This document shows positions 52,601 through 58,813 of a stretch of DNA of 64,000 nucleotides, piece by piece. This stretch comes from Natrononativus amylolyticus (GTDB lineage Archaea > Halobacteriota > Halobacteria > Halobacteriales > Natrialbaceae), in contig NZ_CP101458.1 in assembly GCF_024362525.1 (NCBI RefSeq), forward strand, positions 1,364,001-1,428,000. Direction: 5' to 3'. The first letter of the stretch is position 1. Each line of letters starts with the position of its first letter. Both the position numbers and the translations under genes were made by a program. The notes under the pieces were generated by a model. That model saw only the letters and a list, made by a program, of their open reading frames with translations, did not search any database and was not told the origin of the DNA.

Positions 52601-52628
52601 AATGGTCGTGGTCGTCACACCGGTGGAC

Positions 52629-53666
52629 ATGACGGACGCGAACCAGCACTCGGTCGTCTACGTCGGCTGCACTGCTCCCGCCAGAGACGTCCTCGAGACG
52701 CTGCTCGAGCGCGACGTTCCGATCACCGGCGTCGTCACGATCGGGCCGGAGATGGCGCGGGCGAACGCAGTTTCGGGGTATGCGTCGCTCGCGCCGGTCG
52801 CGGACGAACACGGACTCCCGGTGTACCGACCGGAGTCGTACTCGATGACCGGCGAGGCGGACCTCGAGCGGTTCCAGGCGTTCGATCCGGACCTGCTCGT
52901 CGTCAACGGCTGGCAGCGCCTCGTCCCGGAGGCGATCCTCGAGACGGCCACGTACGGCGCGCTGGGAAACCACGGCAGCGCGTTCGGACTGCCGGAGGGG
53001 CGGGGGCGCTCGCCGCTTAACTGGTCGCTCATCGAGGACCGCGACCGGTTTCTCCTCTCGGTGATCGCACTCGATCCGGGCGCGGATTCGGGCGACGTGG
53101 TGACGACGCGAAAGTTCGACATCACCGAGTACGACACCATCGAGACGCTCTACTACAAGGTGACGATGCTGCTCAAGGAGATGCTGCTCGAGGTGATCGA
53201 ACCGATACTCGCCGAGGAGCAGCGTCGGGAGCCACAGCGCGGCGACCCGACGTACTATCCGAAGCGGACGCCCGAGGACGGAGCGATCCACTGGGGCGAC
53301 GGGACCGACCGGGTGTACAACCTCGTCCGTGCGGTCGCCGATCCGTACCCGGGCGCGTTCACGTTTTACGAAGACGAGCGGGTGATGATCTGGGAGGCGA
53401 TTCCGTTCTCGAGCGACATCGCACCGACGGCCGACCCCGGAACCGTCGTCGACGTCTTCTGGACCGGGGAGTTCGTCGTCGCCACCGCCGACGGCACGGT
53501 GCTGGTCAGGGAGTGGGAGGCCGACCGCTTTACCCCGGAGGCCGGTCAGGTCCTCGAGTCGACGGGCGAAAACGGCCGGATAGACGGCACAGAGCAGCGA
53601 CACAACCTCTCGAGTACGCCGACCGACGGCGCCGAATCGGAGCCGGAGGTCGAAGCGGATGCCTGA
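52629..53666 (+). CDS. Formyltransferase, probably acting on an amino sugar
   Basis: The 345-residue protein has the formyl-transferase N-domain (VVYVGCTAPARDVLETLLER, LLVVNGWQRLVPEAILETAT, HGSAFGLPEGRGRSPLNWSL, GADSGDVVTTRKFDI) and a C-domain (RTPEDGAIHWGDGTDRVYNL, ADPYPGAFTFYEDER). The family uses N10-formyl-tetrahydrofolate. Catalytic H115 and D153 are present; the usual N-x-H asparagine is glycine, with N114 next to H115. NGWQRLVP resembles sugar formyltransferases more than Met-tRNA formyltransferase, which archaea lack. The stop region overlaps the deacetylase start by 8 nt. A start at 52602 is also possible. Confidence 0.85.
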   Translation: MTDANQHSVVYVGCTAPARDVLETLLERDVPITGVVTIGPEMARANAVSGYASLAPVADEHGLPVYRPESYSMTGEADLERFQAFDPDLLVVNGWQRLVPEAILETATYGALGNHGSAFGLPEGRGRSPLNWSLIEDRDRFLLSVIALDPGADSGDVVTTRKFDITEYDTIETLYYKVTMLLKEMLLEVIEPILAEEQRREPQRGDPTYYPKRTPEDGAIHWGDGTDRVYNLVRAVADPYPGAFTFYEDERVMIWEAIPFSSDIAPTADPGTVVDVFWTGEFVVATADGTVLVREWEADRFTPEAGQVLESTGENGRIDGTEQRHNLSSTPTDGAESEPEVEADA

Positions 53667-54366
53667 ACTCTCGGTTCCGCGGCGACTCGACTACAGCTTC
53701 GACGCGTACGAGCGGTTGCTGCAGTCGCTGCTGGACGACGGGTTCTCGTTCACCCGGTTCTCGACGATCGGACGCGACGAGATCGCGCTTCGCCACGACG
53801 TCGACCTCTCGCCGCGAACCGCACTCCAGATGGCCAGACTCGAGGCGGACCTCGGCGTGACGTCGACGTACTGTTTTCTCCTGACCACGCCGGTCTACAA
53901 CTTACTCGAGGTCGACAACGTACGGGCGCTCACGGAGATCGACGCGCTCGGCCACGAGGTGGCGTTACACTTCAACACCCACCACTACTGGTCGTCCGAG
54001 CCCGACGTCGACGAGCTCACGACGATGGTTCGCGCGGAGTGTGACGTGATCGGCCAGCTCGTCGGCCGGACGGTCGACATCGTCTCGTTTCACCGGCCGC
54101 CGGAGTGGGTGCTCGGCGTCGCGTTCGACGGCTTCGAGAACACCTACCAGCCGGCGTTTTTCACCGAGCCGGTCTACCGGTCGGATTCGAACCAGAAGTG
54201 GCGAGACGAACCGCCGTTTCCGAACGGCCGGCCCGACCGCCTCCAGTTGCTCGTCCACCCGGGGTTGTGGGAGTCGTCGGCCCGCGAAATGCCGGAGATC
54301 CTCGAGACGATCGCCCTCGAGCGCCACGGCCACGTCGACACGTATCTCGGACCGCTCGGGACCTGA
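53659..54366 (+). CDS. Polysaccharide-deacetylase-like (CE4/NodB-fold) protein
   Basis: The 235-residue protein has the metal and catalytic signatures of the NodB fold: RHDVDLSP (H46, D47, D49), EVALHFNTHHYW (H104, H108/H109) and FHRPPEWVLG (H145, R146, PP). No signal peptide or membrane helix is present, so it acts in the cytoplasm, probably on a nucleotide-linked or lipid-linked N-acetyl sugar. Its 8-nt overlap with the formyltransferase suggests stepwise action: removal of acetyl, then addition of formyl to the free amine. Confidence 0.82.
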   Translation: MPELSVPRRLDYSFDAYERLLQSLLDDGFSFTRFSTIGRDEIALRHDVDLSPRTALQMARLEADLGVTSTYCFLLTTPVYNLLEVDNVRALTEIDALGHEVALHFNTHHYWSSEPDVDELTTMVRAECDVIGQLVGRTVDIVSFHRPPEWVLGVAFDGFENTYQPAFFTEPVYRSDSNQKWRDEPPFPNGRPDRLQLLVHPGLWESSAREMPEILETIALERHGHVDTYLGPLGT

Positions 54367-58060: not shown

Positions 58061-58813
58061 ATGCGACGACCGACACCCGACAGGCGAACCGTTCTGCAGA
58101 CGCTCGGTATCGCGACCGGGGCGGCGGCGCTCGGATCAACGCTCCCCGGCGTCTCGGCCGACGACTACGACGAAGCGAACGCCACACAGATGAGCTACGA
58201 CCTTCCCGACCTCCCCTACGAGTACGACGCACTCGAGCCGCACATCGACGAACGCATCATGGAACTCCACCACGGCGCCCACCACCAGGCGTACGTCGAC
58301 GGCGCGAACGAGGCCCTCGAGACGGTCGATGAGATGCGCGCCGAGAGCGACTTCGAGGGCGTCCGGGCGGCCAAACGTGACTTCTCGTTCAACCTCTCCG
58401 GGCACGTCAACCACGTCGTCTTCTGGGACGGAATGAGTCCGGACGGCGGCGGCGACCCCGACGGCGAACTGCTGGAGGCGATCGAGGCCGACTTCGGCTC
58501 GGTCGAGGCGTTCCGCGCGGAGTTCACCGCCGCGGCCGAGAACGTTGAGGGCGACGGCTGGGCGATGCTGTTCTACGAGCCGCTCGCGGACGGCCTCGTG
58601 ATCGGCCAGCTCGAGGGTCAGAACGACCTCGCTCACCAGGGGTCGGTGCCGCTTCTGGCGCTCGACGTCTGGGAGCACGCCTACTACCTCCAGTACGAGA
58701 ACGACCGGGCGGCCTACGTCGAGGCGTGGTGGAGCGTCGTCGACTGGGACGAAGTCGCCTGTCGGTACGAGGCGATCACGTCGGAGCGAGCGCACGCGGC
58801 GATCGAGACGTAG
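58061..58813 (+). CDS. sod: Fe/Mn superoxide dismutase with Tat signal peptide
   Basis: The enzyme of about 250 residues converts superoxide to oxygen and peroxide. The catalytic domain begins near residue 45 (YDLPDLPYEYDALEPHIDER). Metal ligands are H in IMELHHGAHHQAYVDG, H in NLSGHVNHVVFWDG, and D/H in LALDVWEHAYYLQYENDR. Ahead of this are about 33 residues with a twin-arginine signal: PDRRTVLQTLGIATGAAALG and a cleavage-like PGVSA. Haloarchaeal SODs are usually cytoplasmic and about 200 residues; this one appears exported. No lipobox cysteine is present, so it would be free or loosely attached outside. Confidence 0.93.
   Translation: MRRPTPDRRTVLQTLGIATGAAALGSTLPGVSADDYDEANATQMSYDLPDLPYEYDALEPHIDERIMELHHGAHHQAYVDGANEALETVDEMRAESDFEGVRAAKRDFSFNLSGHVNHVVFWDGMSPDGGGDPDGELLEAIEADFGSVEAFRAEFTAAAENVEGDGWAMLFYEPLADGLVIGQLEGQNDLAHQGSVPLLALDVWEHAYYLQYENDRAAYVEAWWSVVDWDEVACRYEAITSERAHAAIET

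Follow-up and report, generated by a model that had tools for sequence, protein, structure and literature searches.

A formyltransferase gene (FT) and a gene for a CE4-like deacetylase (DA) lie on the forward strand of the window, a 64,000-nt stretch of the genome of the haloarchaeon Natrononativus amylolyticus (Natrialbaceae), and both open reading frames were confirmed there (Table 1). The two genes overlap by 8 nt, as the original prediction had described, and their translation is likely to be coupled through this overlap. An upstream in-frame ATG at 52602 is also open and leads to an FT of 354 aa; the residues H115 and D153, counted from 52629, are H124 and D162 in this longer form. Since the flanking genes on both sides are on the opposite strand, the pair stands as an isolated bicistron. 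Its neighbours are an integrase gene, a DUF5805 gene and unrelated genes, and no sugar genes flank it in the window. Elsewhere in the window (58061-58813, +), a superoxide-dismutase-like protein, read by eye, has an apparent Tat signal (RRTVLQTLG) and may be exported.

Table 1. Features of the FT-DA locus, with positions in the window; FT residues are numbered as in the 354-aa form.
Feature	Position	Strand	Basis or conservation
FT, GxH branch, FT1 subfamily	52629..53666	+	345 aa; PF00551 and PF02911, ArnA relative, alignment-conserved start
GxH motif Gly122-Asn123-His124, replacing Asn-x-His	52965..52973	+	G and H invariant in 88 FT1 rows
Asp162 codon, equivalent of the catalytic Asp (ArnA D140)	53085..53087	+	invariant
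Overlap of FT 3' end and DA start codon, 8 nt	53659..53666	+	sequence
DA, NodB-fold metal-dependent deacetylase, CE4-like	53659..54366	+	235 aa; AlphaFold model, motif conservation
HDVD (H46-D47-V48-D49), CE4 base and metal Asp	53794..53805	+	D47 and D49 invariant
H104-x3-H108, CE4 metal-binding HxxxH	53968..53982	+	26/26 FT-linked DAs
H145 codon, SFHRPP motif, CE4 motif-3 region	54091..54093	+	invariant
H200 codon, LLVHPGLW, CE4 motif-5 catalytic His	54256..54258	+	invariant

The two encoded proteins

FT matches PF02911 (1.5e-16) and PF00551 (1.4e-11) in Pfam, with 45 and 61 bits for Formyl_trans_N and Formyl_trans_C, above both curated cut-offs, and its best solved relative is ArnA (5e-34). 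It has the two Pfam domains of ArnA, without the ArnA-type second (decarboxylase) domain, and the catalytic His and Asp of the ArnA N-terminal domain and of WlaRD, VioF and PseJ-type formyltransferases; unlike these enzymes, it has Gly for Asn and an active-site loop that is two residues longer (HGSAFGLPxGRGR). The Asn-x-His...Asp triad is incomplete: His124 and Asp162, correctly located by the original prediction, are invariant in the FT1 alignment, as are more than 80 further columns, and Asn is replaced by Gly122 in every row. Judged from the sequence, FT is filed as part of a GxH branch that would work like the sugar N-formyltransferase family, short of full membership.

Other identities considered for FT were set aside. 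A Met-tRNA or GAR formyltransferase was rejected on the patchy distribution of FT1, found in 22 of 391 genomes; besides FT, the genome encodes two PF00551 proteins, which by eye look like a PurU-like and a purine-type protein. A degenerate enzyme is thought unlikely, Gly122, His124 and Asp162 being invariant across the subfamily, and a viral origin was discarded, the viral contigs being without any FT1 relative.

For DA, no Pfam profile, that of polysaccharide deacetylases included, gave a match at E<1, and the only NCBIfam match is a weak one to ArnD (E 0.021). Structure prediction, which had been proposed as a check on both proteins, was informative for DA: its AlphaFold model (pLDDT 87.3) matches CE4 deacetylases, and the top 21 Foldseek matches are all CE4-fold hydrolases; the FT model (pLDDT 54.6) is too poor to use or to show the Asn replacement. 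Structural matches of DA (VIA Z) include PplD (13.2), ArnD (12.5) and WbmS (PDB 3hft; 11.7 over 180 residues), and several true deacetylases score level with ArnD; a profile search of DA against 3hft gave no match. The CE4 set of base Asp, metal Asp-His-His and C-terminal catalytic His is complete (D47, D49, H104, H108, H200), and these residues, together with H145, are identical in all 26 FT-linked DAs. Those named in the original prediction (H46-D47-D49, H104, H108 and H145) are all present, while H200 had been missed. With CE4 deacetylases, among them WbmS from the O-antigen synthesis of Bordetella, DA shares the fold, the Asp-Asp, the HxxxH and the C-terminal His; it differs from them in its very distant sequence and in being paired with a formyltransferase gene. 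Because it represents a divergent branch without a match to the Pfam polysaccharide deacetylase profile, we label it CE4-like.

Co-inheritance of FT and DA and the settings of their relatives

A neighbourhood survey in other haloarchaea, suggested in the original prediction, bore out the pairing. When 391 haloarchaeal genomes (class level) were searched with an FT profile, 22 matches were obtained at 486-643 bits and the next best never exceeded 185, leaving a clean gap. A DA match lies within about 160 bp of FT1 in 22/22 of these genomes, which rules out chance adjacency. Counting the window copy, the closest DA homologues (60-72% identity) have FT directly upstream in 13 of 14 cases, and these pairs occupy one and the same slot, which has an integrase/DUF5805 pair on one side and a HisG-like/coiled-coil/beta-lactamase-fold set on the other; one Natrialbaceae genome, G085, keeps DA in the conserved slot (L040:9355-10068) and lacks FT. 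Named close relatives of the locus are those of Natronoglomus, Halovivax, Natronosalvus, Natronobiforma and Saliphagus. A second set, of five genomes (DA 44-48%, FT 50-52% identity), has the reversed order, DA then FT, with ribosomal/RNA polymerase genes adjoining the pair in four and WecB in the fifth (L050). The order is thus FT then DA in most genomes and DA then FT in another group, in several genomic settings. The pairwise distances of FT and DA are correlated (r 0.91, 26 pairs, 0/5000 permutations), a value to which shared species history contributes. These results support the view that FT and DA are a real, conserved functional pair. A second DA copy without FT was seen in L045 (G007:C10), where GT2, DUF354 and flippase genes are clustered with it.

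Outside the Natrialbaceae the pair is often found within nucleotide-sugar clusters, whose genes were called with a simple coding-bias script and named from small custom profiles, the individual labels being approximate. L109 contains a hexapeptide acyltransferase, DegT, a Gfo/Idh protein closest to archaeal UDP-GlcNAc 3-dehydrogenase, DA, FT and WecB; L105 and L107 a UDP-sugar dehydrogenase, FT, DA and GlmS, with GlmM additionally in L105; L108 DegT, FT, DA, a flippase and GT2; and L101 and L103 a hexapeptide acyltransferase, ATP-grasp, FT, DA and GlmS. Sugar genes close to the pair were not seen in L104. The earlier statement that no glycosyltransferase or nucleotide-sugar genes flank the pair therefore holds for the window and fails for relatives elsewhere; the common precursor that it was taken to point to is a possible substrate.

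Relatives of DA are present in 108 of the 391 genomes, against 22 for FT1. In the DA tree the neighbours sort by clade (18 changes vs 48.6 in shuffles), and comprise FT1, an LpxD-like hexapeptide acyltransferase, WbqC, or a hexapeptide-DegT-hydrolase-DA-glycosyltransferase-ATP-grasp cluster; an AU test on the single-clade status of the FT-linked DAs gave p 0.42. The last of these clusters, with a hexapeptide acyltransferase and a metal-dependent hydrolase, is conserved in several haloarchaeal families (L160, L197, L199, L201, L203, L211, L219). An LpxD-like hexapeptide acyltransferase is encoded directly upstream of a DA-family gene in L158/L195, L202, L209, L213-L218 and L162, the overlap of the two genes being 4 nt in Halobaculum. 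WbqC (PF08889) adjoins DA-family genes in haloarchaea and Azospirillum (L053-L055, L062-L064, L069, L163). On bacterial plasmids, LpxD-like is followed by DA in Sphingomonas, and DA by WbqC in Azospirillum.

It is as if the acylating partner of DA were interchangeable across clades. The simplest common theme would be that DA frees an amine which a variable partner re-acylates, and WbqC could transfer an N-acyl or aminoacyl group once deacetylation has taken place. Every FT-linked DA retains H108, the second metal His, but this residue has been lost from the DAs linked to WbqC and from many of those in nucleotide-sugar clusters, so it would be unsafe to take the whole family as active.

GxH formyltransferases and legionaminic-acid clusters

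The Gly for Asn, pointed out in the original prediction, is no peculiarity of this FT: it is invariant in the subfamily, in all 88 FT1 rows, and common to a larger GxH branch, with 27 other haloarchaeal FT rows (both counts include overlapping loci), while the remaining haloarchaeal rows keep NxH. In a tree of 61 non-redundant FT proteins the 38 GxH rows make up one side of a branch with support 92 (not starred). A CE4-type DA or PIG-L gene lies within 4 kb of haloarchaeal GxH FT genes in 44/44 cases examined; with L113 set apart, the 16 GxH loci outside FT1 have PIG-L (PF02585) within 3.3 kb, and L113 has DA. Neither was found in any of the 14 NxH-only loci in the stretch examined around each, and a DegT aminotransferase lies within 3 kb in 9 of them. 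The Fisher value for GxH vs NxH is 6e-13 with relatedness ignored; since GxH probably has a single origin, it is fairer to count a single FT clade accompanied by deacetylases of two unrelated kinds.

Bacterial cases of a GxH FT directly followed by PIG-L are found in Sulfitobacter and Labrenzia. GxH FTs on plasmids of Ruegeria, Palleronia and Ensifer (L236, L237, L240) adjoin ATP-grasp and HAD genes and have no deacetylase within 6 kb, so that GxH is not always a sign of a deacetylase. We read the Gly for Asn as a property of an FT branch that acts after a deacetylase, and not as inactivation.

Archaeal N-formyl sugars, presumed undescribed in the original prediction, are in fact known: 5-N-formyl-legionaminic acid, detected chemically, is carried by Halorubrum sp. 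PV6 and its virus HRPV-1 (PMC6137143). The proposed formyltransferase of Halorubrum sp. PV6 is HrrPV6_1050; genes 1046-1051 are LegC, LegB, LegF, LegG, FT and NeuD, gene 1053 is LegI, gene 1052 is unmentioned, and the published pathway names no deacetylase (PMC6137143). Two of our loci, L123 and L115, run in the order DegT, LegB-like, NeuA, NeuC-like, GxH FT and hexapeptide protein, and continue with PIG-L and NeuB on the opposite strand; because this gene order matches, we predict that gene 1052 encodes PIG-L. In legionaminic acid, N5 comes from the nitrogen of the GlcNAc acetamido group, and a 5-N-formyl group consequently implies that the acetyl was replaced or never added. In six haloarchaeal Leg-type clusters (L111, L114, L116, L119, L124, L234) a GxH FT gene near PIG-L is accompanied by a second FT gene of the NxH type, and each enzyme may serve a different amino group.

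The window pair resembles the Halorubrum clusters in that a GxH FT adjoins a sugar N-deacetylase and the formylated nitrogen would come from the GlcNAc acetamido group. It differs from them in that they use PIG-L (PF02585), not a CE4-like enzyme, and contain NeuB/NeuC genes; NeuB, NeuC and PIG-L were not found near the window pair. No Epimerase_2 gene was found in the window's genome, which argues against ManNAc-type or NeuC-dependent sugars and leaves those of the GlcNAc or GalNAc type.

A probable acetyl-to-formyl exchange and its alternatives

FT and DA probably form a cytoplasmic acyl-exchange module, by which the N-acetyl group of an amino sugar bound for a surface glycan would be replaced by N-formyl. 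We infer that DA would act first, removing the acetyl from an N-acetylated amino sugar, most likely at the C2 acetamido group inherited by any UDP-GlcNAc-derived sugar, and that FT would then formylate the exposed amine with N10-formyl-tetrahydrofolate as donor; the product would be an N-formyl amino sugar destined for a surface glycan. The genome encodes the genes for the supply of this donor, formate-THF ligase (FTHFS) and FolD. The amine for FT would in this way come from a deacetylase and not, as in the ArnA-type formyltransferases, from an aminotransferase. Taking into consideration that: (i) N10-formyl-THF is cytoplasmic, and (ii) neither FT nor DA has a signal peptide evident by eye; the substrate is likely to be a nucleotide sugar or a lipid-linked cytoplasmic intermediate.

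The order of deacetylation and then formylation had already been proposed in the original prediction, and is backed by the neighbourhoods, by the contrast between GxH and NxH loci and by the pairs of PIG-L and GxH FT in Leg clusters. That a surface sugar has its acetyl exchanged for a formyl in two steps is, as a hypothesis, well supported. Counted against it are the lack of sugar genes beside the window pair and of an Epimerase_2 gene in the genome, the DA without FT in L040, the bacterial GxH FTs without a deacetylase, the absence of the catalytic Asn, and the fact that in the nearest solved relative, ArnA, the formyl is transient.

If the formyl were transient here too, FT would add it and an ArnD-like DA would later remove it, giving a free-amine product, which we consider unlikely. 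The Arn pathway does combine a formyltransferase, ArnA, with a CE4-fold hydrolase, ArnD, and these two are the best solved relative of FT and the (weak) NCBIfam match and a structural match of DA; however, several true deacetylases match the DA structure as well as ArnD does, many genomes with DA have no FT by profile, and beside LpxD-like or WbqC there is no sign of a formyl for DA to remove. In the Arn pathway the formyl is removed at the end, whereas Arn genes are absent here, no ArnB/ArnC-like genes adjoin the pair, and DA relatives are found in FT-free settings. ArnD, moreover, works at the outer face of the membrane, and DA is without an evident signal peptide.

It is distinctly unlikely that the two enzymes make independent modifications, an aminotransferase supplying the amine of FT and DA acting on another acetamido group, as in a 2-amino-3-formamido sugar. 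DegT adjoins the pair in L109 and L108, in keeping with this, but it was not detected within 3 kb in Natrialbaceae or in L104-L107, where the pair and its overlap persist, and in L109 a separate hexapeptide acyltransferase is available to the product of the aminotransferase; in addition, FT and DA are adjacent in every order and setting. That FT has ceased to be a formyltransferase, serving as a scaffold or using another one-carbon or acyl donor and leaving DA as the sole working enzyme, would fit the replaced Asn of all FT1 rows and the solitary DA of L040, but is very improbable given the invariant His, Asp and more than 80 other columns, unlike a dead enzyme, and the occurrence of GxH FTs in clusters that share the gene arrangement of Halorubrum, an organism with N-formyl groups on its glycan.

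Returning to the acetyl-to-formyl exchange, and taking into consideration that: (i) haloarchaeal N-formylation is known, and (ii) parallel PIG-L pairs exist; we regard the pair as a variant of sugar N-formylation and not as a new kind of system. A literature search that covered mainly freely accessible papers found none describing a deacetylase-formyltransferase swap. Relevant N-formyl sugars are also associated with the wbm cluster of Bordetella and the O6 cluster of P. aeruginosa. Tentatively, exchange by a deacetylase and an acyltransferase could be a general, modular way of rewriting GlcNAc-derived N-acetyl groups in archaea and bacteria, with GxH FTs as its formyl arm, LpxD-like, WbqC and ATP-grasp proteins as other arms of DA, and the window pair as its formyl version in free-standing form, modifying a nucleotide sugar that the cell already makes.

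If the exchange is true, it would explain how an N-formyl group arises at a position that UDP-GlcNAc always delivers acetylated, and would fill a gap in the legionaminic-acid pathway published for haloarchaea. It would also provide a sequence rule for formyl placement, by way of a deacetylase for GxH and of an aminotransferase for NxH enzymes, and would give WbqC proteins a testable role.
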